From assembly GCA_016741895.1 (NCBI GenBank), contig JACVCT010000004.1:6751-47729 (forward strand): a DNA stretch of 40,979 nucleotides, written 5' to 3'. Of this stretch, positions 1-38,993 are shown piece after piece. The stretch is from Gemmatimonadaceae bacterium. Its GTDB lineage: Bacteria; Gemmatimonadota; Gemmatimonadetes; Gemmatimonadales; Gemmatimonadaceae. How positions within the stretch are numbered: the stretch's first letter is position 1; the number at the start of each line of letters is the position of its first letter. The position numbers were made by a program, and so were the translations under genes. Under the pieces are notes generated by a model. That model was not told where the DNA came from and made no database searches. It saw nothing but the letters and a program-made list of their open reading frames with translations.

Positions 1-596
1 CCTCAATGCCCCAGATCGAATGGACCCCTGCGCAGCAGGCGAACGCAGCGCCCCGGGGGCGGGGTCCCCCGCGGCAGCCCGGGGGCGCCCGCGCATGAGG
101 TGGCGAGGCTGAGGGCGCCCCGCCCCCCCCCTCGCTCCCCGGCCCCCATGGCTGCCCAGGGTCGGGGGCGGGTACACCCGCGGCTGGCCGGGGTCCGATG
201 GCCGCGGGTGGTTGGTCGCTGACCCCGCCGTCAATCCCGCCACGCGCGCGGGCTACATGGCCACGCTCCCGGACATCGAGCCGCCCGCCCACGTCGCGAG
301 GTTGCCTGTGTGGTGCACGACCGCCCCCACCACGTCGGCGGCCGAATGACGCGAACCGTCATGGCCTGTGTGCAGCACAGGGACGAGCAGAAATCGGCTG
401 CTCTGCACAAGTGGTTGTACAGCTGGCACTTGGCGAGGGAGCCGTGTGCATCAGAGAGCACTGTCTCCATCGGCGTGAATGTTCTCTCTGGTGCACACGG
501 CTCGGCCGATTCTGCGCAAGTGTATGTCCTGTCTGCAGATCCGCGACGCTCTGCGCAGACCCATCGTCGTTCGATTGCACACAGGGGGCGACGCTG

Positions 597-3116
597 ATGC
601 CGCTCTCACCACAATACGCCCCGCGCGCCGAGAATTCGGCATTGATCCGGGCCGCACTGATCGACCTCTGGGCCAGCGGGATGTCGGTGGCGTTCGCGGC
701 GGTGGAGACCTATCTCGCCTCGAAGGGGACGCCGCTGAGCAAGCCCACGGTGGCAACGCAGATTCGCACGTGGAAGCTGGCAGGCTTGGCCGAGACGACC
801 GCTGCCCCACGCGGGACCGGAGAGAGACTTCATACGCTGCGGCTCGGCGGCCTGAAGACGGCCACCGCGACGCTGCGCACCGTGGTCGAGTTTGCGTTGA
901 CCAGGGAAAGCGGGTTCCCATCGTGGGCCCACGCGAACCTGCGCACCGCGCTGCGTCTCGTGCTCGAACTACCACCCGGGGCGGACCTGCCGACGCTCCT
1001 CACCGCCGCCGAGGCGGTACCCCCTGCCCGCCTGCGTGATCTGCCTGAGCGGCTCCTTTCGCTGGCCGCATCACGCGGGCTGACGAGGCGAGTCGCGACC
1101 AATCTGGAGAGCGTGTTGCGGCGCGCGCTGCGTTGCGCCGCCGAGCACAACCGGATCCCGTTGGTGTTTGTTGTGCACGACACCGATGCGGCGTGGGACG
1201 CGCTGCGCTGGGCGTTCTTCGGGGCCGACTCCAAGGTGCCGCCGCGCTCGCGGCCTACGTACCGCCGCGCGTTCACGCGGTTCTGGCAGCACATCACGGT
1301 CTTGTTGGCGGATCCTGTCCACGGTCGGCCCAACGTCACCTTCGAGGACGTCACGCCCACCGACGTGGCACTCCTCAAGCGGCATCTCCGTCGTTCCGGG
1401 AAGGCGTGGCTGTACCAGCAAATTCAGCACACGCTGCGGTGGATCGGTAAGACGCACGGTACGGGGCCCTACGGAGGGGCGCGGTCGTCATCGACCGACG
1501 CGGTGTATCTCACCCCCGAAAATCGGTCTCGGGAAGCAGGGACGCTTGGTAGTTGGCCCGCGCTGATCCGGCTCTTTGAGGAACATGGTTTTGGCCCCGA
1601 GTGGCTCGAGTTCCTCGCGTGGTATCGCGACTATTCCACACTCCCGGACGCTGACCTCGCCGCCAACGCGGAGCAGTTCCCCGTTCGCCCCACCAAGCGG
1701 CACCTCGCGCCGGGCACGGTAGTCCGGCGTCACTTTGCGCTGCGGGCATGGTGCGGAATGGCCCGAATAGTCCTCGACAAAGATCCCGCCGATCTCACGC
1801 TTCAGGATGTGTTCGGCGACAGCGCGCGACTGATCGGCGAGAAGTTCAAGACATGGTGGGCTGCGCGCGCCGATGCGGGTGAGGTCACCGACGCGACGAG
1901 CGGGGGCCTGACGACCGTCCTGGTGAGCGCGGCGATGGTGGCACGAGCCCTGTGTGATCGCGCCGCGCACCAACGAGGGGCGCGGCCTGCGGCCGGGAAG
2001 GGGGCGAGCCTTCTCGAGTGGGAGCGCGGTCTACGCACCGCTGAGGAAGAAGCCTACTTCCGAGGCTACCAGGCGCTCACCGCGCAGGCGGATCAGCTGG
2101 AAGAGAAGCGAAAGACGTCGGAATCGGGGCACGTTCACACGACCGCCAAGGATGTCGTGCGCATGATCCGGCAGACGCCGCCCCAATGGTGGCAGCAGGT
2201 GCTGGACGCGATGCTGGCTGAGGTGCAAGCGGGGGTCGCGAAGGGGCGCTCCGGGATGAAGTTTTACCGGCTGGTCAGCGCGACGTATCTGCTCGGATTT
2301 GTGATCTCGACGGGGCTCCGCCGTGGTGAGCTCGCGCACGTGCGGATTGGCGCCTACGTCAACCGCAAGGGGGAGCGAGTCGACCGACAATACGGCCCGG
2401 GCAATCGCGCAGCTCGCGTTGTGAAACTCCGAGCAGTGGACCGGAAGAACCGGCGACAGCACATCGCATGCGTTCGCGAACGCTTCTGCCCGCTGTGGTT
2501 GGAGACCCTGTACCTCGACAAGGCGCGCCCGTTCTTTCTGGCCAAGGGGCAGCAAGAGCATGACTGGTTGTTCGTCAATACCAGCGGCGCGCCGTACGGG
2601 TGCATCAACGAGACCGATTCAGGGCAACGCACCGCGGAAGACATGCATCGGTCCACCACCCGAAAGCTGATGCTGACCAAGACGTTTCAGCAGCAGGTGG
2701 CAAGGGCCGCCGCGCGCATTGGGCTGCCCCTGCCTGACGAGATTCACGAATTCGGTTTCCATGCTGTCCGCAACGTGTTCGCGTTTCTGCTGTTTCAGAC
2801 GCCCGGGCATGGGGTCACTGCGGCGGCGAACTGGTTGGGCGACCGCACGGCGACCGTTGAGGGCACCTACGCCGAGGTAGACGGCACTTTGGTTGATGTG
2901 TCCACCTGTCGAGACCTCGTCCTGGCGCTCCCGACGGAGGTGGTTGCTGCGAACGGAGAGAGCGCGGAGACGGCAATAAACGCCCCCCGTGGCCTGACCA
3001 GTACCTCCAGCGGGGAAACGACGGAGGAGGCGCTCATGCGGTTGTTGGGGACCTTCACCGGCCGCGACGTCAACACCCGGCAATTGGATCTGATCAAGGC
3101 CGTCCTGACGCAATAG
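597..3116 (+). CDS. Large tyrosine-recombinase-like site-specific integrase (about 839 aa)
   Basis: ORF in frame with the 198..3116 track; ATG at 597 is the likely start. Box I 'ISTGLRRGELAHVRI', HxxR 'GFHAVRNVFAFLL', then 'WLGDRTATVEGTYAEV' with the candidate nucleophile Tyr. The N-terminus looks like a helical KfrA-type DNA-binding segment. Confidence 0.8.
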   Translation: MPLSPQYAPRAENSALIRAALIDLWASGMSVAFAAVETYLASKGTPLSKPTVATQIRTWKLAGLAETTAAPRGTGERLHTLRLGGLKTATATLRTVVEFALTRESGFPSWAHANLRTALRLVLELPPGADLPTLLTAAEAVPPARLRDLPERLLSLAASRGLTRRVATNLESVLRRALRCAAEHNRIPLVFVVHDTDAAWDALRWAFFGADSKVPPRSRPTYRRAFTRFWQHITVLLADPVHGRPNVTFEDVTPTDVALLKRHLRRSGKAWLYQQIQHTLRWIGKTHGTGPYGGARSSSTDAVYLTPENRSREAGTLGSWPALIRLFEEHGFGPEWLEFLAWYRDYSTLPDADLAANAEQFPVRPTKRHLAPGTVVRRHFALRAWCGMARIVLDKDPADLTLQDVFGDSARLIGEKFKTWWAARADAGEVTDATSGGLTTVLVSAAMVARALCDRAAHQRGARPAAGKGASLLEWERGLRTAEEEAYFRGYQALTAQADQLEEKRKTSESGHVHTTAKDVVRMIRQTPPQWWQQVLDAMLAEVQAGVAKGRSGMKFYRLVSATYLLGFVISTGLRRGELAHVRIGAYVNRKGERVDRQYGPGNRAARVVKLRAVDRKNRRQHIACVRERFCPLWLETLYLDKARPFFLAKGQQEHDWLFVNTSGAPYGCINETDSGQRTAEDMHRSTTRKLMLTKTFQQQVARAAARIGLPLPDEIHEFGFHAVRNVFAFLLFQTPGHGVTAAANWLGDRTATVEGTYAEVDGTLVDVSTCRDLVLALPTEVVAANGESAETAINAPRGLTSTSSGETTEEALMRLLGTFTGRDVNTRQLDLIKAVLTQ

Positions 3117-3153
3117 AGCGGGTGGGCCTATCGCGGTCGAGCGAATGGCGGCC

Positions 3154-3179
3154 GACGCGGCCAACTGTGAGGCCGCGTC
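3154..3179 (+). terminator. Hairpin downstream of recombinase 1
   Basis: Perfect 9-bp inverted repeat gacgcggcc-aactgtga-ggccgcgtc, 37 bp after the stop; no clear U-tract. Confidence 0.45.
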
Positions 3180-3309
3180 ACCACGTAAGCCATCCGACGT
3201 TCGCGCGTCATCGTGCGGCCGCCCCGCCTGCGATGGCGCCCCCCGCACCACCCGCCTACGCTGCCCGGCGCCCACTTGGCGCGCAGGACACCGAGACGCG
3301 GAGTTCCGT

Positions 3310-3936
3310 ATGACGCAACGAACCTCGAATCCCTTCCCCATCATTGTCCTCACCCTGCCCTCGGCCGTCGAAGCGCTGTGGATCGCGGCGCTGCTCGCGG
3401 CGTATGGCTCGACGGCGGAGGTACGGCTCCATGGGCGGACGAGCTTTCTACATTGCGCGCAGTGGGCGTTTTACGGGCTGCTGTGTCGCACCACCGGCCC
3501 GCGCGTGTCGCTCTCGTTTCTGCAGCGAATCACGGCACGGGCAGCAGCACGGATGTTGGAGCGCTGGGCGCAGTACCCGTGCGGCCCGCTGGCTTCGTTC
3601 CTTGGGCAGATGCAATGCGCGCTCGATGACGTGATGTTCGGCCAGGGGGAGGCAAGCGCCAATGTGGACAGCACATCCGCCGGAGGCGTACTCACCACGC
3701 TTACGAGAGACGATCAGCGGATGCTGATCGACCGCGTGCGAGGCCGCCTGGCGCCCAACGTGCTCACCGAGTTGATGATCAGAGTCGAGACCGGGGGCGC
3801 ATCCGACACCTCCACGGGTCACACGTCACCCGCGCTGCAGCAGGCGGTGTGTGACCTTGAGTGGGCGCTTCTTGGCGGTATCAGTTATGAACTCGGGCTG
3901 CCGATTCACGAAGAGCGGGCGATGAGGGCGGCATAG
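3310..3936 (+). CDS. Hypothetical helical protein, paralogue of the 4623..5234 product
   Basis: ATG at 3310 preceded by cggagttccgt; shares the layout ALW/YxAAL...LARxxxARVS...RxLxxW, then an L(T/S)xx(D/E)(Q/R)xxL C-terminal part with 4623..5234. Confidence 0.7.
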   Translation: MTQRTSNPFPIIVLTLPSAVEALWIAALLAAYGSTAEVRLHGRTSFLHCAQWAFYGLLCRTTGPRVSLSFLQRITARAAARMLERWAQYPCGPLASFLGQMQCALDDVMFGQGEASANVDSTSAGGVLTTLTRDDQRMLIDRVRGRLAPNVLTELMIRVETGGASDTSTGHTSPALQQAVCDLEWALLGGISYELGLPIHEERAMRAA

Positions 3937-3957
3937 CTGCTCACGGTGCCGGTGGCG

Positions 3958-4473
3958 CTAGCCGCGAGGTGGGTCATGGGTGGGCGAGGCGGGCAAGTCT
4001 GACTCCTCGCCCACGTGACTCAGCAAATCGTACACAACCGGGTTCAACACCGTCCATCGGTACGGAAGGTTCAGGAGCCGGGCCACCGCGGCGGCGACCG
4101 AGCGCGACCTCGAGATTCCGGCATCGCACGACAACACCAGTCGCCGGCGTCGCACGTGACGCGACACGAACGCGACGATTCGTCGCGCGTCCTCAATGCA
4201 TATGGAGCGTGCGTCAGGACGAGATGCCGCGAGGCTGCCAGTATCGTCAAACACCAGCGCCAACACCTCGATCCAACCCGCCCGCTGCGGTGCCGTCCTG
4301 CGCCCCGGCGTACTGATCGTGATCAGCACTTCGTCCACCACGGGTGTGTACCTCGCGAGCTTCGGCGCACTGAGCACTCGCATCTGCAATACACCGCTCT
4401 GCCCTTCCTCGATGTCCCCGACATAGCCGTCGGTGGCAAGGCGTCTGGGCAGAGATCGGGGTAGCAGGGACAT
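3958..4473 (-). CDS. Dual-specificity/tyrosine phosphatase-like protein (CX5R)
   Basis: 171 aa from ATG at 4473; 'LVLSCDAGISRSRSVAAAVARLL' matches the P-loop signature C-x5-R-S of cysteine phosphatases. Confidence 0.75.
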   Translation of the reverse strand: MSLLPRSLPRRLATDGYVGDIEEGQSGVLQMRVLSAPKLARYTPVVDEVLITISTPGRRTAPQRAGWIEVLALVFDDTGSLAASRPDARSICIEDARRIVAFVSRHVRRRRLVLSCDAGISRSRSVAAAVARLLNLPYRWTVLNPVVYDLLSHVGEESDLPASPTHDPPRG

Positions 4474-4622
4474 GCCTTCAAGGTGACACGCGTTTGGTGC
4501 GCTGGCTACCCAACGCGGAACAGCCCCGAGCTCGCTGGCGCTGCGATCATCCGCGCCCCCTGCCGGACCGCCACAGTCTGTTCCGCGCCCGCTTGGCGCC
4601 GAACACACACTACGGAGTTTCG

Positions 4623-5234
4623 ATGAGAACCATCACTCAACGTCAGGTCACTGGCCTGGCCCCGTTGCAGGCGCTCTACGTCGCCGCCCTGATCGCGGTC
4701 TCCGGCTCGTCCGAACGCGTTCGCCGTGTCGCTGCACACGCATTCGAGCATAGCGTCATCGCCGCGATCTGGGGATTTCTCGCCCGTCACACGGAAGCGC
4801 GCGTGTCGTGGCTCCGTCTCGCCTCGATCACGCACGAAGCGACCAGACGCTTTCTTCACGATTGGCCACGGACCACGACGATCAGTGTCGAATCGATGAT
4901 GGCCGTGCTGGAGCAATGCACGCACACGGCCGCGTTCACGGTCACGGCGATGCCGGCCGCGGTTGAGCCTGCTGGCCATCTCGGAGTGCTGACGCTTCTC
5001 TCACACGAAGAGCGTGTCCAGCTGCTGCAGTCCGTTCAAGCGGCGCTCACGCCCGCTGAGCTGTGCGTGCTGCACGCGGTGATCGAAGACGAACAAGATG
5101 GCATCCGACTTCGCTTGGACGCGGACATGAACGTCACGGGTGCCATTGAACGCCTGGAATCGCTGCTCCTCGGGGCGTGCACCTACACGCTCGGCACGCC
5201 GACGGCCATCGCGAACGGACGTCTCGCCGCATGA
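4623..5234 (+). CDS. Hypothetical helical protein, paralogue of the 3310..3936 product
   Basis: ATG at 4623 with cggagtttcg upstream; C-terminus 'LSHEERVQLLQSVQAALTPAELCVLHAV' is weakly sigma-like. Confidence 0.7.
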   Translation: MRTITQRQVTGLAPLQALYVAALIAVSGSSERVRRVAAHAFEHSVIAAIWGFLARHTEARVSWLRLASITHEATRRFLHDWPRTTTISVESMMAVLEQCTHTAAFTVTAMPAAVEPAGHLGVLTLLSHEERVQLLQSVQAALTPAELCVLHAVIEDEQDGIRLRLDADMNVTGAIERLESLLLGACTYTLGTPTAIANGRLAA

Positions 5235-5309
5235 TGCCAACGGTGGGCGGCGGTTCGACGGGCACGGCGATCACGCCGCTCATCGGCAATACCACTACAA
5301 CGAAGGGAG

Positions 5310-6824
5310 GTGACGCGTAGCAGAACTGCCTTGATCCACTATCCTTGCCTTCGTCGGGCCGCCACGGACCGACCCACTCTTCAACCAGGAGTCACATTCG
5401 ATACGTCGATCAACACAGTCCCTACCGTTGTGACATGGGCGCTGGCCCTCGCGTTCATCGTCGGCATGGTGGTCCTGGTCCTGTTCGCCAGAATGCTGAT
5501 GTCGAAGCATCGCGAAGAACGCGTTCGTCTTCTTGCGGAGGCAGAGGGGGCACGAACGCGCGCAGAGGCGGTGGCCCTCGAGCGTGCACAGCTCGACGCG
5601 CAACTGCGCGCCACCCGCGAGGCCGCAGACGCGCAGCGAGATGCCGTCCAGCACCTGTCGGCCGAACTCGGCGAACGCCTGCTGCAGCAACAGGCCAGCG
5701 CCTTCGAGGCAACCACTGCAGCGCTCGAACGCCGCGCGAATTCGGAGAGCGAGGCGATCCGCGCCGCCTATGAGGCGGCGACCGCCGAGCGGAACGAACG
5801 TTTACACGTCGAGCTTCAGCCGGTGCACGAGACGCTGCAGAGGCTGGCCGACACCTCCGTCGCCACCGACACCCGCAGCGCGGCGGAGTTCTCGCGTCTG
5901 GTTACGCTCGTACAAGGTCTCAACGACGAGCACCGTGCGCACCGGGAGGAGACGCGCAAGTTGCAGGACACTTTGCGCGTATCGCAGGTACGCGGCCGGT
6001 TTGGTGAGTGGACGCTGCAGCGCGCGCTGGAGGCGGCCGGTCTCCAAGAGCGCGTGCACTACGTGCTGCAGCCCACCCTGCGCGATGAGGAGGGACTGTT
6101 CCGGCCCGACGCCGTGCTGTTGCTGCCGCAGGGCCGCGCCATTGTCATCGACAGCAAGGCGCCGTTACAGCACCTGCTCGACGCCCAGAACGCGTCAACG
6201 CAGAGCGAGAAGACCGCGCTGCTCGACCGCCATGCCAAGGCACTGCGCACGCATATCGATCAACTCGCGAGCAAGGCATACGCCGCACGCGTGGCGGCGG
6301 TCGTCCCGGATCGGGTGCTACTCGACGGCGTGCTGCTCTTCGTGCCGGCCGATGCGGTGCTGGATGCGGCCTACCGCCGCGATCCGAAGCTGGTGCAGCA
6401 CGCGCTCGGGCAGCATGTGCATTTGGTGTCGCCGGCCTCGCTGCTGCTCGCGCTCAGTGCGGTGGAGCAGTTGTGGCGACAGGACGGGCGTGATCAGCGG
6501 GCGGCGGAGATCGAGAAGATCGGGGCCGATCTGCTGGGCCGCCTGAGTGTTGTGCTCGGGCATGTGAGCCACGTGCAGCGTGCGTTGAGCGACTGTGTGG
6601 CGGCCTACAATGCGCTCACCACGTCGCTGGAATCTCGACTCCTCCCCATCGCGCGACGGATGGAGGAGCTGGGCGTTCGCACGCGTGAGCCCATGCCCAC
6701 CATCGGCGAGATCGACACGGTGCCACGCGAGTTGGGGCCGCGCCTCAGCCGTGCGCTGGTCTCTCCGCAAACGGACGTCACCACGACGTCCGTTGCCTCC
6801 GACGACACGCCCGCCGCCGCCTGA
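5310..6824 (+). CDS. rmuC: DNA recombination protein RmuC homologue
   Basis: N-terminal TM helix, long coiled coil, then 'VRGRFGEWTLQRALEAAGL', 'FRPDAVLLLPQGRAIVIDSKAPL', 'DGVLLFVPADAVLDAA', all typical of RmuC. Start codon uncertain (GTG at 5310 or an internal start). Confidence 0.88.
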   Translation: MTRSRTALIHYPCLRRAATDRPTLQPGVTFDTSINTVPTVVTWALALAFIVGMVVLVLFARMLMSKHREERVRLLAEAEGARTRAEAVALERAQLDAQLRATREAADAQRDAVQHLSAELGERLLQQQASAFEATTAALERRANSESEAIRAAYEAATAERNERLHVELQPVHETLQRLADTSVATDTRSAAEFSRLVTLVQGLNDEHRAHREETRKLQDTLRVSQVRGRFGEWTLQRALEAAGLQERVHYVLQPTLRDEEGLFRPDAVLLLPQGRAIVIDSKAPLQHLLDAQNASTQSEKTALLDRHAKALRTHIDQLASKAYAARVAAVVPDRVLLDGVLLFVPADAVLDAAYRRDPKLVQHALGQHVHLVSPASLLLALSAVEQLWRQDGRDQRAAEIEKIGADLLGRLSVVLGHVSHVQRALSDCVAAYNALTTSLESRLLPIARRMEELGVRTREPMPTIGEIDTVPRELGPRLSRALVSPQTDVTTTSVASDDTPAAA

Positions 6825-6859
6825 CGCGGCGCCCCCCGTTGTGATCACCCACGCTGTGG

Positions 6860-6880
6860 CCCCGGCCGTGGTGGCCGGGG
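6860..6880. terminator. Hairpin between rmuC and the 6903 gene
   Basis: Perfect 8-bp stem ccccggcc-gtggt-ggccgggg. Confidence 0.4.
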
Positions 6881-6902
6881 TCCATTCACGCAAGGAGACC
6901 TC

Positions 6903-7598
6903 ATGGAAAAGCGCAATTCTCACCGGCAGCGCGCAGCACGTACGCCTCTTGATCTGTTCCTGTCGCACGGCGCGGGCGTATTCTTCCTCTTCTTGATGTC
7001 GCAGTCAGCGCCGTACTCGGATGCGCGCGCTGCAGCGAGCGCCTTACATCAGGTGATCGAGGAGCGCGTGCGCGCGTATCTCGCACAACTGCTCTTGTCT
7101 GTCGAAATGGATGCGTTCAATCGTGAAGCGCTCATCCAGTCAAGGACCCAGCTCGCTACTGCTCGCGTCGTTGCACGCCTCTCCCGGTGTGCGAGTCGCA
7201 GTCAGCACGATTTCGCTCGCTGGCTCGAATGCCAAATCGCTGATGCGGTAGAAGACGGTGATGACCAAGACCCGCACGGTGGGTCGGCGGCGCTGGCGCC
7301 CACCTCGGTTGTGTCGAGTTCGTGGGCGCTCCACCAGCTCCCGATTGCGCGCGCAGAGCGAGACACGCTCGTGGCTGCGGTGCTGGCTCTGTTGCTGCCG
7401 GCCGAGCGCGAAATCCTGCTCGCTATGGCGCATCCTCGGGTCACGTGGGCTCAAGCCGCACATTCGATGGGGCTCACGATGTTCGAGGCCAAGCAGTTGT
7501 ACACACGGGCCCAAAGTCGGGCGAGTGAGATTGCCGTACAACTCGCCGTGAAGGCCACTGGCGCCAGTAACACCGGGCCAGAGGCGACGGCTGCGTGA
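6903..7598 (+). CDS. Small protein with sigma-70 region 4-like / HTH C-terminus
   Basis: Strong RBS aaggaga before ATG 6903; C-terminus 'LLPAEREILLAMAHPRVTWAQAAHSMGLTMFEAKQLYTRAQSRASEI' resembles a sigma4 HTH. Confidence 0.7.
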   Translation: MEKRNSHRQRAARTPLDLFLSHGAGVFFLFLMSQSAPYSDARAAASALHQVIEERVRAYLAQLLLSVEMDAFNREALIQSRTQLATARVVARLSRCASRSQHDFARWLECQIADAVEDGDDQDPHGGSAALAPTSVVSSSWALHQLPIARAERDTLVAAVLALLLPAEREILLAMAHPRVTWAQAAHSMGLTMFEAKQLYTRAQSRASEIAVQLAVKATGASNTGPEATAA

Positions 7599-7703
7599 CA
7601 ACCCTGAACATCCCGGGCGCTGTGTAATCAGAGCGAGCGTACGTGCGGGCAACCATTCGGATGTCGACCGCTCGTGTCGCGGAAGCCCACAACGTGCGCT
7701 GGA

Positions 7704-7737
7704 GACGAGCCTTGGGCCGGTCGGCCCAAGGCTCGTC
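7704..7737 (+). terminator. Strong hairpin, probable terminator
   Basis: Perfect 15-bp stem gacgagccttgggcc-ggtc-ggcccaaggctcgtc downstream of the 7598 stop. Confidence 0.6.
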
Positions 7738-7918
7738 GTGTACCCGCCTCCGCCCGCTCGCATTCGCGTGGCGTTCACTGTCTGATTCGTTGATCGGCGG
7801 CTGCGCCTACCGCCTGTAGGCCCCGGGTGCCACAACACAGCGGGCCCGCATGGCGGACCCGCCGCATTGTCGTCTCCGTCACCGTCGTACTCGTGATCCC
7901 ATTCGTCGATCAGGCGAT

Positions 7919-8419
7919 TTACGCCCGCGACGGCGGCTCTTGATCAGGATCCGCGAACCACGTTCCGTCGTCACGCTGGCGCAGCCCGGCTCGGCGGCCC
8001 ATCGCAGCAAGATACTCGAGCCAGAGGCCACGCCCCTCCTCCCCGAGGGAGGCAAACAGCTCCTCCGGCGTGGACACATCGAGTTGCTGCGACACGAAGA
8101 TCGCGAGGTGTTCCGTATGCCACGCGTTCGCCCCCGGCGGCGGCGCCCCGAGCCGTACCCGCCAGTAGATCTGCGAAGCACGCCCCGCCTCCTCCGGGAA
8201 CCCCTCGGCGTTCAGGTGCTCGAGCTGAGCGCGCAGCATGCCCTCGTGGTCCATCGGACTCTGTGCCAGGCGCCGGTCGGCCTCCCAGGTCTGCGCGACG
8301 GACGTCGCGATGCCGACCAGCTCTGCGCATGTGCGGATGCTCTTCCCCTGCTCGCGCAATTTGCTGAACTGGTCGCGCTTGTTTCGGTATTCCCTATCGT
8401 TCGCTGGCGGTCGCCCCAT
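7919..8419 (-). CDS. Hypothetical protein with N-terminal HTH-like segment
   Basis: 166 aa ORF, RBS-like gggaggcgagg before ATG; 'KSIRTCAELVGIATSVAQTWE' is HTH-like. Confidence 0.6.
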   Translation of the reverse strand: MGRPPANDREYRNKRDQFSKLREQGKSIRTCAELVGIATSVAQTWEADRRLAQSPMDHEGMLRAQLEHLNAEGFPEEAGRASQIYWRVRLGAPPPGANAWHTEHLAIFVSQQLDVSTPEELFASLGEEGRGLWLEYLAAMGRRAGLRQRDDGTWFADPDQEPPSRA

Positions 8420-8577
8420 CGAACCTCGCCTCCCAATTGAACATCCCCGATGAACGGCGGCATGCCGTCAGTCGGGAAAATAGCGAGCGCGTCTGACAGA
8501 ACCGAGGGTGTGGGCGGATGGGGATACCGCTTCCCCTCGTGTACCGGTTTGCGTCGGGCATGCGGTACGCTCGACGC

Positions 8578-8790
8578 ATGAGCCTATCGATTCTGCGCGC
8601 GACGTTCGTGCGCTTCGCCACCTCCACCGTGCCGCCCGCCGCCCTATGCGCGTCAGCGCCAAACGACGCGGTGGCGTCCGCCGCTGCGCACCTCACGGCG
8701 GGTGTGCCAGAGCGAAGGATTACCCCCGTGCAGGGGTTGGCCGAGATCTGTACCGGTTTCGCTGCGGCGTACGATAGGCTGCCATCATGA
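8578..8790 (+). CDS. Small ORF (70 aa), stop overlaps next start
   Basis: ATG 8578 (MSLSILRATFVRF...); TGA 8788-8790 overlaps ATG 8787; duplicated TGTACCGGTTT motif upstream. Confidence 0.35.
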   Translation: MSLSILRATFVRFATSTVPPAALCASAPNDAVASAAAHLTAGVPERRITPVQGLAEICTGFAAAYDRLPS

Positions 8791-9404
8791 ACACAGCGAT
8801 CCTTCACGGCGAGTATGTGGTACTCCCCACGACGCTCGTACCGTCCATGTTGGCGGACGCGGCCTCCATGGTGGCGGATTCGGCCACCCTGACGGTGCAG
8901 AGCTATCAGCAAGCGATGCTGATGCTCGTGCGGTGGTACGAGGCGGGGCAGCTGGCGGGCCGTGGCGCCCCTGCCACGCCCCCCGGAGGAGGTGCACCGT
9001 CGCCGGTCGCTATCGCCCCCGATCACGCCGCCGTCGTGCCCAGCACGCTGCTCGTGACGAAAGCGCCAGAAGCGCCGACGACGAGCACGGCGCCCGCGGT
9101 GGCGCTCGCGACGGCGTCGAACGCCTCCGCGCCTGCCCCGTCGTCAGCGAAGACGGTGGAGCCGGAAGCGCCCCTGTGTGAAACTGCCAAGGCGGAGGCG
9201 GAAACGGCGAAATCGATGGAGCAGCCGGTAACGGAGGCTCCAGCGACATCGCCGCGCCGCCGCATCGCCCGCCCTTTCCTGCCGGCATCGTCGCCCCCGC
9301 CCGAGGCTACCCCACCCTGCGACGCGCTCGGCCACGCGGCCCGTCAAGCGATCTCGCATCGCATCGGCCCCGACGTGACTGATCCTGGCGCGCAGGCCCC
9401 CTGA
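8787..9404 (+). CDS. Hypothetical Ala/Pro/Thr-rich protein
   Basis: 205 aa ORF between the small ORF and recombinase 2; low-complexity C-terminal half. Confidence 0.5.
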   Translation: MNTAILHGEYVVLPTTLVPSMLADAASMVADSATLTVQSYQQAMLMLVRWYEAGQLAGRGAPATPPGGGAPSPVAIAPDHAAVVPSTLLVTKAPEAPTTSTAPAVALATASNASAPAPSSAKTVEPEAPLCETAKAEAETAKSMEQPVTEAPATSPRRRIARPFLPASSPPPEATPPCDALGHAARQAISHRIGPDVTDPGAQAP

Positions 9405-9416
9405 GCGAGAGTCCTC

Positions 9417-11219
9417 ATGCCCCGTCCTCGTAAGCTCCTCAGCCACACCACCCATCTGCCGGATGGGCGTCGGATCGTACTCGAAGAACGTCGCAATCGG
9501 CGCCCCCAGGCCCGCTGGTGGGATCCCGAAAAGCAGGGCTATCACCGCGTATCGCTTATGACTGTGCCGCACCTTAACAACGGGATTACACGCCAGCTCT
9601 GCCCGACAATGATCGCGAGGGCGCTCGAAGAGGCCGCTGCGCGGTTACCGAATCCCAACGCGCGACCGCGCGTTACCGTCGATGACGCTCTGCATGCGGC
9701 GCTTGAGGGCGACGCGAAGAAAGAACGGAGGAAGGGCAGCGAACAGCAGCAGGAGTGGAGCCGCGCGCGCGCGGAGCTTCAGGCCGTGCTGACGGTGCCG
9801 ATCCCGGTGGAGGAGTTGCTCCCGCAACACCTCACGCTGGTCGCGCGGTCCGCCCTGCTCCGAGTATCGGCGGGGTGCTCCCTTGACGATTGGGGGCACT
9901 CTATTGATGCGATTGGCAGCCCCGCCACGGCCGCACTGTCCTCGATCCAATGGATCGAACAGATGCAGCAGATGTTGCGCTCCGTATACGCGACCGCCCT
10001 CGAATCCGCCGATCCGGACAGGCGCCGCACCCCCGGACTCCCGTGGGCGGTCCGCTGCGCCGAGGTTTTGCGCGCCGCCCTTCGTCAGGCCGGGCAGCAT
10101 CCCGACTTCGCCCGACTGCAGCACTTCTCGCTGTCGAAGGACATGATGGTCGCGCTGGCCAACGAGGCAGAGGACTGCGGGATTGACCTCCCAGACGGTC
10201 CGGCGCGGCCGAGATACGAGGAGAAGGCCGCGCGTGGCCTGTTCCGGTTGCTCCGCGATCCGCGGTGGCGGCTGCTCAGCCTGCTCTCGCGCACCAAGCG
10301 GGGCCGTGTTGGTGCGCTCGAGATCACGCGAGCCACCCTCCAGGTCCGCAAGGGCGAGCTGGTAGTGCGGCAGTGTGTCGGCGGCCAGAAAAACCCGAAC
10401 CAGTTCTTGCACACCCCCATCGCCCCGGCGGCCGCGCAGATGGTGCAGCACGTGCTGCTCACGCACTACGCCGATGCGGAAGCACAGTACCAAGACGACG
10501 GCACCGACTACGCGTTGTTCGACGGGTGGACGTGGGACGGTCGGACGCTGACGGCCAGCGCCTCGACGAAGTTCGTGGATGTGGATCCGCGACTGCTGTT
10601 ACTACTCGAGATTGGCGCGGAGGCGCGCTGGGAGCAGCAGATCCGCCTTCACCGTCGGGATCTCCTGACATCCGGGGCAACTTTCTTGACCAGCGAAGTC
10701 GGGCTCGGCGACAACAAGCGCTCCGGCACGCGCCCCCTCTCGGCGACCGCGTTGGAGGCCCTTGGGTTTGAACTGGAGTACGGCTACCTCGCCGAGCTCG
10801 AACAGGCCTTTCGCCGCGGGGAGATCAAAGACTACCCGCTGTTCGCCGGCAAGGAGTTCAACGGCGGCGTCATCCCGTGGCGTGGCGACGCCCTGGCCCC
10901 GATCCACGCCGATGTCCTCAAGCGGTGGAACAAGCGGCTCGAACAGGCCCTCGGCCTCACGTCCGTGGACGGATTGGGCTTCCGTGGGTGGCGGCGCCGG
11001 TTGGCGGATGTTTACGAGCGCTGGGCGACGAGCGCGCGGGTCAAAGACATGATCATGGGCCACAAGCAGGTGAAGGTGAATTTCAACGGCGGCTCGACGC
11101 GCGAGGTGGTGTATCTCGACATCCGCGACGAAGCCCTGACCACGGAAGCCATGCGCTTGCTGCAGCACGCCCGTACGCAGTGGGCACTCACTGGTGAGGC
11201 GCCGCCGACGAGCACGTGA
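9417..11219 (+). CDS. Divergent tyrosine-recombinase-like integrase (600 aa)
   Basis: Candidate Arg I in 'LSRTKRGRVGALEI'; 'GFRGWRRRLADVYERW...VKDMIMGHKQ...TREVVYLDI' aligns by eye with HxLRRT...LGH...Y of phage integrases. Located next to a tRNA gene. Confidence 0.7.
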   Translation: MPRPRKLLSHTTHLPDGRRIVLEERRNRRPQARWWDPEKQGYHRVSLMTVPHLNNGITRQLCPTMIARALEEAAARLPNPNARPRVTVDDALHAALEGDAKKERRKGSEQQQEWSRARAELQAVLTVPIPVEELLPQHLTLVARSALLRVSAGCSLDDWGHSIDAIGSPATAALSSIQWIEQMQQMLRSVYATALESADPDRRRTPGLPWAVRCAEVLRAALRQAGQHPDFARLQHFSLSKDMMVALANEAEDCGIDLPDGPARPRYEEKAARGLFRLLRDPRWRLLSLLSRTKRGRVGALEITRATLQVRKGELVVRQCVGGQKNPNQFLHTPIAPAAAQMVQHVLLTHYADAEAQYQDDGTDYALFDGWTWDGRTLTASASTKFVDVDPRLLLLLEIGAEARWEQQIRLHRRDLLTSGATFLTSEVGLGDNKRSGTRPLSATALEALGFELEYGYLAELEQAFRRGEIKDYPLFAGKEFNGGVIPWRGDALAPIHADVLKRWNKRLEQALGLTSVDGLGFRGWRRRLADVYERWATSARVKDMIMGHKQVKVNFNGGSTREVVYLDIRDEALTTEAMRLLQHARTQWALTGEAPPTST

Positions 11220-11266
11220 ACTCACGTGGCGCTCCGCGCGGCATGACCGAAGTCAGGAACAAAACA

Positions 11267-11301
11267 GAACGGGGGGCGGCCATGATGGCCGCCCCCCGTT
11301 C
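11267..11301 (+). terminator. Hairpin downstream of recombinase 2
   Basis: Perfect 16-bp stem gaacggggggcggcca-tga-tggccgccccccgttc. Confidence 0.65.
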
Positions 11302-11426
11302 GTATGCTCCGTACAGTCGATCAGTGCGTTCGGTGGTACCCAACGTCGCCCGCAACGTCGCCCACCGATTTTCTGCTTGGCGACGTGGTGTCGCTAAGTC
11401 AAACTGTTTGAACTACTTACCCAAGT

Positions 11427-11499
11427 CGGGACGGCGGGATTTGAACCCGCGACCCCCTGAACCCCATTCAGGTGCGCTACCGGGCTGCGCTACGTCCCG
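11427..11499 (-). tRNA. tRNA-Pro(GGG)
   Basis: Reverse complement CGGGACGTAGCGCAGCCCGGTAGCGCACCTGAATGGGGTTCAGGGGGTCGCGGGTTCAAATCCCGCCGTCCCG folds as a cloverleaf; anticodon loop ATGGGGT. Confidence 0.95.
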
Positions 11500-30980: not shown

Positions 30981-31313
30981 TCACCGGCTGTGCTTGTACA
31001 TCATCTCCAGCAGCTCATCGTACATCACGTTGGCTTCCGCCTCGCCGGAGCGGATGGCCGTGGCGGCACAGTGCTTGAGATGATTGCGCATCAGCTCACG
31101 CCCCACCGCGCGCAGCGCCTCGTGCACCGACGAGATCTGCGTCATGATGTCGCCGCAGTAGCGGTCCTCTTCCACCATCTTCTGGATGCCGCGCACTTGC
31201 CCCTCGATGCGCCGCAGCCGCTTGAGATTGCGCTCCTTGATATCGGCATCCACCGCGTGTGCCTTGCGCTCTGCAGTCGGCGCCGCGTCCACGACCTCAT
31301 GCGATTCGTGCAT
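30981..31313 (-). CDS. csoR: CsoR/FrmR-family metal-sensing repressor
   Basis: '[53 protein letters not shown]' with the C-H-C pattern. Confidence 0.9.
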
Positions 31314-34707: not shown

Positions 34708-35079
34708 TCAGCGTCCAAACCTGACCGCGGCATAGACGCCAGTGACATGGCGACCATCGGTCAATCGGAGGAAGTGAACTGAGAAGCGCGGACCGACGCT
34801 GCGCAAAGTGCCGATGTTGGCCCGAACTCCACCACCAAGAAGGTTGCCGTCAAATGCGGCCACGCCGACCGTCGGCCCCACGGCCATTCCCCAAGTCCGC
34901 CGGGTGGACGTTGGCGAATACAGCATGGTCCCCTCGGCGATGTAGCCAGCGCTTGTACACGCATCTCCGCATCCGCCAGCTCGAACGCCAAACGACGCGA
35001 GACCCTCGAGAATCCCATGTAGGGGGATACGGTTGGTGACAGCGGCTACGGCAGCGTCGAAACTACTCCCTGCGACCAA
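34708..35079 (-). CDS. Hypothetical, beta-barrel-like small protein
   Basis: 123 aa ORF with alternating Gly/aromatic pattern ending '...VTGVYAAVRFGR'; overlaps the upstream hydrolase stop; start uncertain. Confidence 0.5.
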   Translation of the reverse strand: MVAGSSFDAAVAAVTNRIPLHGILEGLASFGVRAGGCGDACTSAGYIAEGTMLYSPTSTRRTWGMAVGPTVGVAAFDGNLLGGGVRANIGTLRSVGPRFSVHFLRLTDGRHVTGVYAAVRFGR

Positions 35080-36469
35080 CCAGTTTGGACAGCAGCATCT
35101 GCACGTCTGACCTGTAGGGATCGCCGTTCCGCGGCACGCGTTGCATTCTCACGACGACAAGATTGTGGTCGGGAACGACCTGTATGTCTGTGTTGAGATA
35201 CCCCAGCGCGGCGAATCGTCGCTCATCTGGCATCGCCGTCCACCAAAGCAGGCCGTACTCGGGATTCAGTGCTTGCGACGGCAGAACACTCTTGTTGATC
35301 CATTGTTCATCGACAATGCGGCGTCCCAACCACACTCCGCCCCGTGCTACCATTGCGCCAATGCGAGCCAACTCGCGTGGCGTGGTAATCATGTCTGCAT
35401 ACGTCCACGCGTGCATCTTTTCGTCCACCATGAGTCGCGTGTGTCTCAGACCAAGCGGATCAAACAATCTCCTCCTCGCATATTGGTGGATCGGTTCACC
35501 AGCAACCTTGTCCAGAATTGGCGACAGCAACTGAACACCCTCGTTGCTATATGCCCAGGTGGAGCCAGGCTCAAATGCCGGCGTTAACGCGCGTACAAAG
35601 GGGTTCTTGTCCCGGGAGAACCCAACGCTCTTCGCTGCTGGGAGTGTAGGCAAGCCTGAAGTCATTGACATGAGATGTCGAATTGTGACGCGCCCTCTGG
35701 CCCCAGCACACCAGTCCGCAAGGAAGCTGCAGACTCGTTCATCAATCGAGCTCAGCTTGCCATCAGCGACCAACATGCCAACCAGCAATCCCGTGATGGA
35801 CTTTGTTGCTGACATCGCATGCATGGGCTCCTTGTAGTAAGGCCCGTACCACTCTTGAACAATCCGTCCCTTGTGAACGACGAGACATGCATCCGCCGCA
35901 GACCGGGAGCACAGGTCACGATGCTGCAGCAGCACGACCGTGTCCAAGCCCGTTGAACCAGGAGCGACCCTGGGCAAGAATCCATCATCACTGGTTGAAG
36001 GTGGCAGAGCGTACGGCTCCGTCGAAACCCGGTTCGCCAGAGGGCCTGTTCGCGTTTGCGGCGCGGCGCGACTGGCAAGCGCGACTCGCACGGTGTCCAG
36101 ATGTTTCGCATAGACGTCGGCGATTGAGCTTGCCCGACATTCCCGATCATAACGTTTGATTGCCACAGTCGCGTTCGCGTTTTTTCCTTGTGCCCACTGA
36201 GCGAAAGTCACGCCGGCCATTGTTTGGCACTTGGCCCGCTCTGAGGACCATCGAAAACCACTACGAAGTGATTGCTGCCCTCGGCGTACTGCCTCACCAT
36301 ATTCCCTGAGCCTGATGTATTGCCAGACCATCGATTCGGTGCTTGTGTTGCTTCGCATTGCCGACTGTGCTACTGCTGAGGAGCAAACCATGGTCTGTCC
36401 AAAGCATAGACAGACCAGTGCAAGAATCATCGAGCCTCGCCATTCTGAGGGTTCGTGATTTGAGTTCAT
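35063..36469 (-). CDS. Serine hydrolase, class C beta-lactamase family
   Basis: 'MHAMSATKSITGLLVGMLVADGKLSSID' (SxxK), 'WAYSNEGVQLLSPILDKVAGEPIHQYARRRLFDPLGL' (YSN). Confidence 0.9.
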   Translation of the reverse strand: MNSNHEPSEWRGSMILALVCLCFGQTMVCSSAVAQSAMRSNTSTESMVWQYIRLREYGEAVRRGQQSLRSGFRWSSERAKCQTMAGVTFAQWAQGKNANATVAIKRYDRECRASSIADVYAKHLDTVRVALASRAAPQTRTGPLANRVSTEPYALPPSTSDDGFLPRVAPGSTGLDTVVLLQHRDLCSRSAADACLVVHKGRIVQEWYGPYYKEPMHAMSATKSITGLLVGMLVADGKLSSIDERVCSFLADWCAGARGRVTIRHLMSMTSGLPTLPAAKSVGFSRDKNPFVRALTPAFEPGSTWAYSNEGVQLLSPILDKVAGEPIHQYARRRLFDPLGLRHTRLMVDEKMHAWTYADMITTPRELARIGAMVARGGVWLGRRIVDEQWINKSVLPSQALNPEYGLLWWTAMPDERRFAALGYLNTDIQVVPDHNLVVVRMQRVPRNGDPYRSDVQMLLSKLVGRRE

Positions 36470-36486
36470 GCGTCGTGCGGCTCTTG

Positions 36487-38349
36487 CTAGCACTGTGAGT
36501 TGAGATAACAGTTGAAGGATCCTGCATCGCCATCGTAACGCCAGCGCGTGACTTGGGGGTCGAGCCGGAACGGCCGCCGAAGAACATGACGAACTCCTGC
36601 CTCAAGCACTTCATCCACACCGTCTCGAAGTCCTTGAATCGTGGGATGCACCGTGAGATCTCGATGGACGCCAACCCCCTGGGTCACCCTGCGGTCTGGA
36701 TAGTACACGCCAAGTCCGCTGAACGTCACTGCCAATCCACCGGGCAGTGAGAGTCGCACAACGTTCCCATCAGCTCCCGCTGTTTGACTTCCCACGACGA
36801 CCACCCGAGGGGAGGCTTGCATGAGCATTGTCGAGTACTCCGCGGCGCTCTGCGTCAGCTCGTCAACCAGGACGAGTACATGACCAGTATAGGTTGGCTC
36901 CAATGGGGAGATCACGCGTGTGAGTATCCACGTGAAGGTACCGGGGTTTGCAATATCCGGACCGCTAAGAAGTGCAGCGGCGATGGTATCATCTACGAAG
37001 TGTCGCGCAAGCAACCATGCGGCCGTGTCACTCGGGTAGCTGCGCATGTCGACGACAAAGAGCTCTGAGCCCGCCGCCGCGCGAGTATACTGACCCACCT
37101 GTTCCGCGCGTGCCTTTGAACCACGAAGGTACGCCACCTCAGGAGTAAGCATCCGGAATGTAGGTCCCATCAACTCGTGATCATGAAGGGCACCTCCCCA
37201 AGAGCGCTTCGGCATCGACCGGCCCACAGAAACTGTATCGATCTGAGCATCTCGACGGATTACTACTGACGTCTCTCCAGGTTGCCCATTCGCCAGAGCA
37301 GAAGCGATCTCACGACTCAGAGCGGCATCGTTGGACGCTCCAAAGAAGGGCTCCCAAAGACCTTTGGTGGTACCGGGCGCACGTCCATCAAGTTCAACAA
37401 TCACGTCGCCCGCGCGGACGTCCGCGTGCCCAGTGCCTGTGTCAGCAAGTACACGACTGACAATCAACTGGCCATTGAGCCAACGCAGAACAAGCGGGAG
37501 CCTAGATGATCCGCCAGGTGGCTGAAAGTGAAAGGCGTTCACCAGGTTTGCGTGACCATCCTTGAGACTTGCGGCGAGTCGTACCAGAACTTTGGCATAG
37601 GCTTCATCGTCACTGGCGGACCACAGCTGCGGCATAAACTCTTTTAGGAGTGCCAGCTGACCTTTCTCCAGCTGCGTGCGATACGGATACCAGTACTCAA
37701 CTGCGTTCCAGAATCGCGCGAGCGCCAGCAAGCGCAGATCACGCGGTACAGGATGGATATCGTAGCTCTCCTCGTTCACGAACGTGATGTTTCCGAGGGA
37801 GGATTTCCTTGCAAAGGATTGCCCTACTCCAGCCCAACGGTTGACATACACGCTCTTCAAACGCTTCGCGGTTGACGCGCTCAAGAGTGTTGTATCCTCA
37901 AGCCACGCAAGGTCCGGCGCCTGCGCTACGTCCGTTGGTGCTCGCGCGCAGGGCTGACATGATGTCGGATCGCCGAGCTTGTCTAACCATTGAGACACCT
38001 GCGTTCCCAATTGCTCGATGGGATCCGGTGCAAGAAGCAGAGGCCTCAGGCTTGCTCGAAATTCCGTGTCCCATTCAACGTCCCGGTCCGTCCAGGTCAT
38101 CTGGTTCGATGACAACGACTTGACCAAGGAGTCCGCGCTATTGTTCGGCGGCGCAGACCTCCCAGCGATGGCAGGGTGGTGGTACTTGAGAAAGCCCCAG
38201 ACGCGAGTAAGCCCGACTAGCGCCTCAACTTGATGGGAGCCAACATCGCCGAGATCATCAATTGATCTCACTTGTGCCGTTGGTCGCGAGGCATCGCAAC
38301 CGGCGATCAAGAATGTCAACACCAGTGCAAGAACGGCCTTGGCAATCAT
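36487..38349 (-). CDS. S41-family peptidase, predicted lipoprotein
   Basis: Lipobox 'LIAGCDAS'; 'GDVIVELDGR' PDZ-like; 'GHVLVLVDELTQSAAEYSTMLMQASPRVVVVGSQTAGADGNV' S41 core. Confidence 0.88.
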   Translation of the reverse strand: MIAKAVLALVLTFLIAGCDASRPTAQVRSIDDLGDVGSHQVEALVGLTRVWGFLKYHHPAIAGRSAPPNNSADSLVKSLSSNQMTWTDRDVEWDTEFRASLRPLLLAPDPIEQLGTQVSQWLDKLGDPTSCQPCARAPTDVAQAPDLAWLEDTTLLSASTAKRLKSVYVNRWAGVGQSFARKSSLGNITFVNEESYDIHPVPRDLRLLALARFWNAVEYWYPYRTQLEKGQLALLKEFMPQLWSASDDEAYAKVLVRLAASLKDGHANLVNAFHFQPPGGSSRLPLVLRWLNGQLIVSRVLADTGTGHADVRAGDVIVELDGRAPGTTKGLWEPFFGASNDAALSREIASALANGQPGETSVVIRRDAQIDTVSVGRSMPKRSWGGALHDHELMGPTFRMLTPEVAYLRGSKARAEQVGQYTRAAAGSELFVVDMRSYPSDTAAWLLARHFVDDTIAAALLSGPDIANPGTFTWILTRVISPLEPTYTGHVLVLVDELTQSAAEYSTMLMQASPRVVVVGSQTAGADGNVVRLSLPGGLAVTFSGLGVYYPDRRVTQGVGVHRDLTVHPTIQGLRDGVDEVLEAGVRHVLRRPFRLDPQVTRWRYDGDAGSFNCYLNSQC

Positions 38350-38480
38350 GGAATCCTATCGGAAAAGGAGAGGGGAGTTGAACGTTTCCCAAACCCAATG
38401 TGTTGCGACACGATGGCTGTGGCCAGATTCTCCAGATCCACATCGACGGTGGGCGCGGTGCCTCCGGCGGCACCGCGTGC

Positions 38481-38993
38481 TTATCGGCCCTTGTCGGGGA
38501 GCGGCGCGTGCAGCGTTTTCGCCCCGGCCACCAACGCGCCCCACGTCTCCGGCACTTCGCCGCGTGAGAGCATCCCGGCGAACATCTGATAGGGGTCGGA
38601 CGTCGCTCCGTCCTTTCGAAGTGTCTTCTCATCGTTCAGCCACGTCAGCACGATGAGCTGATGGGTGGAGCTGAAGCGATAGAACAAGCGAAGGCGCCCA
38701 AGGAACTTCACCCGGCGCCATGCGCTGAGGTTGGCCTTGAGCCGGTAGTCTGCTGCGTTCGGATCGCGTGCGATGTGGTCCCTCAACAGACGCACCAGCG
38801 CGGCGAGCACGGTGGCCTCCGGAGTTGACAGAGGACCCGTGGGGCTGGCCACGCGCTGTGCGGCGACGGTGGTGATCAAGGCGCGCCAGCGCTCGTCGAA
38901 GTCCGGCCACGCCACGAATGTCCAGCCATTGAGCACGAGAGGCGCCGCTTGCGGCGGCGCCTCCTTTGCTTTGGCACGCTTACGAGCCGGCAT
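38481..38993 (-). CDS. YhaV-family toxin
   Basis: 'LVLNGWTFVAWPDFDERWRALI...ADYRLKANLSAWRRVKFLGRLRLFYRFSSTHQLIVLTWLNDEKTLRKDGATSDPYQMFAGML' matches YhaV layout. Confidence 0.82.
   Translation of the reverse strand: MPARKRAKAKEAPPQAAPLVLNGWTFVAWPDFDERWRALITTVAAQRVASPTGPLSTPEATVLAALVRLLRDHIARDPNAADYRLKANLSAWRRVKFLGRLRLFYRFSSTHQLIVLTWLNDEKTLRKDGATSDPYQMFAGMLSRGEVPETWGALVAGAKTLHAPLPDKGR

Follow-up and report, generated by a model that had tools for sequence, protein, structure and literature searches.

A probable tRNA-Pro island backbone with two divergent tyrosine recombinases and an RmuC gene pair in a Gemmatimonadaceae genome

Two large recombinase-like ORFs lie beside a tRNA-Pro gene in a Gemmatimonadaceae draft genome and enclose a phosphatase, an RmuC gene and several small genes, raising the question of what kind of element this block belongs to and where that element ends. 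We analyzed a stretch of 40,979 nucleotides (the window, C395:6751-47729) from this 426-contig assembly (Table 1). The first-pass annotation had proposed an integrative element bracketed by the two recombinases; all of its ORFs were found in place and open. The block appears to be a variant of the tDNA-integrated genomic island, a known kind of element. Within that kind, we consider it likely that the block represents the tRNA-proximal backbone of a tyrosine-recombinase island at tRNA-Pro, in which rec2 would act on the core, RmuC and its partner gene would form a resident module, and the payload would lie further left. We found no published description of this backbone in the open literature. 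It offers a recognizable, recurring signature for islands whose integrase is missed by standard models.

Table 1. Features of the island backbone and its tRNA target, in positions of the window.
Feature	Position	Strand	Description and basis
Inverted repeat	439..503		65 bp, 23-nt arms, 91% complementary; upstream of rec1
rec1	597..3116	+	839-aa divergent tyrosine recombinase; Phage_integrase 2.8e-4; catalytic residues
Small protein A	3310..3936	+	Paralog of small protein B
Phosphatase	3958..4473	-	CX5R (dual-specificity-like), CDAGISRS; phrog_5614 1.2e-8
Small protein B	4623..5234	+	Paralog of small protein A
Island-type RmuC	5430..6824	+	N-terminal membrane helix, coiled coil, nuclease domain, conserved RPD...DSK
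sigC, RmuC partner	6903..7598	+	Sigma-70 region-4-like C-terminal HTH; family alignment
HTH protein	7919..8419	-	Resolvase-/transposase-type HTH; HTH_7 0.006; phrog_9366 0.0024
Small ORF	8787..9404	+	12 bp upstream of rec2; candidate accessory (directionality?) factor
rec2	9417..11219	+	600-aa divergent tyrosine integrase; invariant residues and homologs
GC-rich hairpin	11269..11300		Candidate terminator 3' of rec2; same hairpin in G067 and C27
Two copies of CAACGTCGCCC	11341..11363	+	12 bp apart; candidate arm-type integrase sites
tRNA-Pro (GGG), intact	11425..11499	-	Island at its 3' side, conserved chromosome at the other
att core	11426..11467	-	42 bp, tRNA-Pro 3' half up to the anticodon loop; partial copies stop here

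The target site is the best-defined part of the locus. As had been claimed, the 3' end of the intact tRNA-Pro faces the block, with an integrase gene at that side, and the right flank of the window is conserved across the genus. That flank is kept by five island-free loci in related genomes (G043, G045, G061, G062 and G053:C33), each with a full tRNA-Pro and no rec2 island; this comparison, which had been proposed as a check, supports a sporadic integrative element at tRNA-Pro. Partial tRNA-Pro copies in relatives and on another contig of the same genome, C27, all end at the anticodon loop and thus define the 42-bp core, which marks distal island ends in relatives. The anticodon is among the standard subsites at which tDNA crossovers are centered (PMC4383910). 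Displaced tRNA fragments are present for the related islands on G067 contigs C40 and C5, and a copy also lies on C27. In G067, contig C40 carries a left-flank gene that is also found in island-free genomes, together with a terminator and the core, and C24 carries rec2, the tRNA and the conserved right flank as the other island end; the motif CAACGTCGCC occurs at both. These comparisons show the target site, the core and the repeats described below, and rec2 would be the enzyme that uses them. It would recombine the 42-bp tRNA-Pro 3' half of a circular island with that of the chromosome, crossing over in the anticodon loop; after integration, the tRNA would be intact at the right end of the island and present as a fragment at its far left end.

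The displaced tRNA fragment of the window island is not on C395. No copy of the tRNA-Pro core was found on this contig, so the island's own left end has not been located. The remark made at first reading that the window contains no left boundary is borne out: the window begins just past a 10-N scaffold gap, which separates it from the 6,750 bases remaining on the left side of C395, and its right edge is the contig end. The DNA left of the gap looks mixed. An HsdR-like N-terminus is fused in frame to an M48-type peptidase (L002 543-1913, on the C395:1-6740 side), which may be an assembly chimera or an unusual junction, and the mgtE and peptidase genes found there are separated by more than 100 kb in those relatives that have both on one contig. 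For these two reasons we did not trust the left side of C395, and a left boundary on this contig was rejected. Most payload genes would lie further left, off the window, and the far end would also be off the contig.

A second candidate for the left end was C27 (L016 2927-7900). It was rejected because no arm motif is present in the DNA on the far side of its core, and we retained it solely as evidence of a second rec2-type element in the same genome. Its rec2 is 70% identical to that of the window, but an IS3-type insertion disrupts the N-terminus; the att region is present as a 90-bp copy, and an IS21-type insertion cuts a CBS-domain gene on the opposite side. The broken sister copy and the missing left end would both fit a degraded remnant of a tRNA island that is no longer mobile. 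We regard this as quite improbable for the window, however, where all ORFs are open, the recombinases retain their catalytic residues and the arm repeats match exactly.

That the two large ORFs flanking the cargo are recombinases is borne out by their catalytic residues. rec2 itself had no match in Pfam, PHROG or PDB profile searches. Its residues R404, K434, R527 and Y566 are invariant in 12 homologs, and the tyrosine recombinase order is completed by H549, with Gly in place of the first His of HxxR. One rec2 homolog matches the profile of the main PHROG integrase family at 6.5e-15, and the rec2 catalytic region aligns in profile comparison, at E 0.003 and with low probability, with an integrase whose own Pfam match is 2.4e-13. 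AlphaFold models made without an alignment reached mean pLDDT values of 37 and 36 and were discarded. Pattern scans of the genome contigs gave no matches, and none of the plasmid or phage records searched held rec2.

Homologs of rec2 are sporadic, occurring in 12 of 180 genomes of the bacterial family, and a wider profile finds relatives throughout the class. On contigs that allow the comparison, the 3' ends of rec2 and of an antiparallel tRNA often lie approximately 10-250 bp apart. This tRNA is tRNA-Pro(GGG) in G000, G067, G110 (twice), G157, G393 and also G088, where it is cut by the contig end; tRNA-Pro(CGG) in G158; tRNA-Pro(TGG) in G362; and tRNA-Gly(CCC) in G130 and G008. Some wider members (e.g., G206, G352 and G072) have no tRNA in that position. 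The small ORF preceding rec2 has a 47% homolog at the same place in G067:C24, and small ORFs closely precede rec2 homologs elsewhere too.

Between rec2 and the tRNA, we compared ten rec2-type att regions with shuffled sequence. Nine of the ten contain an exact direct repeat of at least 10 bp, as compared to 5.5-6.6 bp in shuffled sequence; the C27 copy, with its broken rec2, has a direct repeat of only 7 bp. The repeat period is 12 bp in seven regions and 10 bp in G158, and G110a has a 12-bp-period copy beside a longer, 18-bp repeat. The repeat CAACGTCGCCC is shared by the window and G067, while other rec2-type elements carry ACGTCAGAAT, AACCGTCACC, AAACGGCACC, AATGTAGCCCA, TGCGCACCCAC and CTTATGGGCC. 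Additional copies include a partial inverted one in the window (11379-11388), an exact inverted third copy in G157, and repeats at the left end of the G067 island. No such repeats occur between integrase and tRNA in two tRNA-Gln islands that have a canonical integrase. We read the paired repeats as candidate arm sites because their spacing is kept while their sequence changes, as expected with a diverging integrase. The long N-terminal part of rec2 probably reads the 12-bp-spaced copies, and the nine natural integrase/repeat pairs make co-divergence of integrase and arm sites directly testable.

The other recombinase, rec1, is recognized by PF00589 below the curated cut-off. It presents the tyrosine recombinase order (R, K, HxxR, H/W, Y) as R575, K617, H722xxR725 and Y758, with D749 replacing H/W, and these four elements are invariant across three aligned relatives. 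A PDB search with the rec1 profile returned a single match at chance level, and rec1 was not present in any plasmid record searched. Two homologs in G021, 31-32% identical, sit with genes for small proteins of unknown family in overlapping sets of two or three (L129 11074-14959; L128 1664-4902). The closest tRNA-Pro relative, the rec2 island of G067:C24, lacks rec1, which is thus not needed for rec2-type integration; rec1 is usual but not universal company of the backbone. A single strand of the inverted repeat upstream of rec1 folds at z -5, and a 64-bp inverted repeat lies at a similar distance upstream of a 788-aa gene in both tRNA-Gln islands (L162, L163). Inverted repeats with arms of at least 12 bp occur about once per 25 kb of comparison DNA, so the repeat before rec1 is weak evidence by itself; it may be an operator or a recombination site.

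The two tRNA-Gln islands (G067:C5 and G057:C10) provide the closest parallel to the whole block. Their order is the 788-aa protein, RmuC, its partner, a minus-strand HTH protein or phosphatase, an HTH ORF, a canonical integrase (PF00589 2.4e-13) and tRNA-Gln, and the phosphatase is 56% identical to that of the window. The 788-aa protein shows the motif order R479 / H629xxR632 / Y665. Direct homology with rec1 was rejected, as profile comparison found no similarity beyond the shared motif order, and by position and motif order the protein appears to be the rec1 counterpart. The tRNA-Gln islands share the window layout, but their recombinases are unrelated to those of the window or barely related. 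RmuC and its partner also follow an 843-aa protein in G111:C260, one that gives a weak integrase match. A proposed test of co-occurrence therefore turned out positive, in that a large gene at the rec1 position, RmuC, phosphatase and integrase recur in one layout at tRNA-Gln. We found neither the block conserved across the genus without empty sites nor its gene order at non-tRNA sites without recombinases, the two outcomes that the first-pass annotation had named as contrary to its view.

The G067:C5 island is bounded within one contig, from a duplicate of the tRNA-Gln 3' half and tail (31153-31241) to the full tRNA (67645-67717), a span of 36.5 kb. Approximately 28 kb of it lies left of the backbone, including genes that, to judge by their sequences, appear to encode efflux, methylase and helicase functions. 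Since most cargo of this island lies left of the block, rec1 is no end marker. The idea that the two recombinases bracket the element thus finds no support: in the bounded island the block is only the tRNA-proximal backbone.

The same comparison bears on whether the block is one unit at all. The rec1 element, the RmuC pair and a rec2 islet could have accreted independently at a tRNA-Pro hotspot, and tRNA-Pro does host unrelated elements: a canonical integrase island in G057, an islet without integrase in G055 and the second rec2 end on C27. Relatives of rec1 also occur elsewhere with no RmuC in view. Chance neighborhood of this sort nevertheless seems improbable to us, as the same order and strand pattern recurs in two tRNA-Gln islands and partly in G111, the window and G067:C24 keep five gene families in order, and no copy of the core lies between rec1 and rec2. 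The G055 islet (L064, G055:C90 1871-9490) is 7.5 kb long and has no recognized integrase; it holds an ABC-transporter cassette, with a tRNA-Pro core on one side and the full tRNA on the other, and a similar cassette is found in G067:C40.

Within a single tRNA-proximal backbone, the RmuC pair is the most distinctive cargo. The identity of RmuC is certain (PF02646 1.4e-74); alignment places its start near 5430, and a hydrophobic stretch supports the membrane helix. The genome has three RmuC genes: a housekeeping-type copy (C378), the window copy and one on C244. The window copy is 83-90% identical to those of C244, G067:C24, G043 and G056, 42-44% identical to the tRNA-Gln island copies and 34% identical to the housekeeping copy. 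A homolog of sigC matches Sigma70_r4 at 4.5e-6, and RmuC is followed by sigC at all ten readable loci, an eleventh partner gene lying at a contig end. True partner genes occur in seven of 180 genomes, yet in up to three copies per genome, and we therefore regard the pair as mobile. Weak matches to the sigC profile in many genomes cover only the C-terminal part; they were rejected as partners and read as ordinary sigma region-4 matches. The pair is found at tRNA-Pro, at tRNA-Gln, at tRNA-Met (G043 and G056, with no recombinase seen), and beside a serine-recombinase-like gene (L166, G071:C196). At these loci an RmuC type distinct from the housekeeping one, with a constant partner, is linked to mobile DNA.

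What the pair does is suggested by analogy. In the Shield system, RmuC proteins that are anchored in the membrane and encoded on mobile DNA confer protection against phage (PMC10270631), and related islands carry a caspase-helicase and an MmeI-type restriction gene. The leading reading, to which we would give about an even chance, is that the pair serves defense or exclusion: RmuC, as a nuclease anchored in the membrane and accompanied by a DNA-binding protein, would counter phage or competing DNA as ShdA does. Its main rival, which we hold to be rather unlikely, would place the pair within the island's own recombination or maintenance machinery, where it would process or protect the circular or joint-molecule form of the island, with the partner and the phosphatase as regulators. 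RmuC and its partner do lie between, and mostly close to, recombinase genes, in a fixed backbone place and not among variable cargo, and one pair adjoins the serine-recombinase-like gene. The tRNA-Met pairs without a recombinase in view argue against such a role, as do the rec2-type islands, most of which have no RmuC pair near rec2, and the action of known island-borne RmuC proteins against phage. Beyond the leading defense reading, we tentatively propose, somewhat short of an even chance, that RmuC and its sigma-like partner may form a recombinase-independent exclusion or maintenance module that travels with unrelated integrases at different tRNAs, and that rec2 may found an integrase subfamily co-diverging with paired, 12-bp-spaced arm sites.

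The locus shares features with several described systems. Like Islander tDNA islands (PMC4383910), it combines a tyrosine integrase by a restored tRNA with a probable anticodon-loop crossover, tandem arrays and, in related islands, a displaced 3' fragment at the far end; it differs in that its integrase is too divergent for Pfam and PHROG models and that its backbone adds a second recombinase and the RmuC pair. Arm-binding tyrosine integrases (PMC8138268) resemble rec2 in its long N-terminal extension and paired repeats by the core, but rec2 matches no described model, its box II His is replaced (G524xxR527), and its repeats keep their 12-bp spacing while their sequence changes completely. As in Shield, a protein with an RmuC domain and a membrane anchor is encoded on mobile DNA in addition to the housekeeping RmuC. 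Shield is reported only in Pseudomonas, with other partners (ShdB-ShdE) or as orphan ShdA (PMC10270631), whereas the partner here is sigma-region-4-like and the pair sits within an integrase backbone. GInt islands (PMC5385486) and strand-biased SEs (PMC10214605) likewise have more than one tyrosine recombinase, island cargo and site specificity. Their recombinase-type genes and a small gene stand together at one end, with short terminal repeats; in the window, 6.3 kb separate the two recombinases, and a tRNA is the target. Membership of either group was rejected: the window has no ginABCD (three adjacent integrase genes and a small gene), with no third recombinase recognized, and no intA-tfp-intB and srap gene set at one end. 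In agreement with the earlier reading, neither the conjugation or phage structural (virion) genes expected of an ICE or prophage nor restriction genes were recognized by Pfam and PHROG between rec1 and rec2 (597-11219), the part of the island on the contig.

The remaining genes of the backbone may be regulators or accessory recombination factors, as may rec1. Three related small proteins had been proposed; two of them, A and B, are indeed related (30% identity), while the third was rejected as their paralog, family alignment identifying it as sigC, whose start was corrected from 6996 to 6903. The phosphatase start is better placed at 4473. Six strong matches to this phosphatase were found: three adjoin an RmuC pair, another adjoins a rec2-type integrase, and one more shares its contig with a rec2 island. 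A distant homolog (L228 7484-8130, G014:C2) is next to phage-like small genes, with a tRNA-Arg 13 bp away. The minus-strand HTH protein has a 38% homolog at the same place in G067:C24. Outside the backbone, positions 35001-38500 of the window have a GC content of approximately 0.57, as compared to approximately 0.67 elsewhere, and may be another acquired segment.
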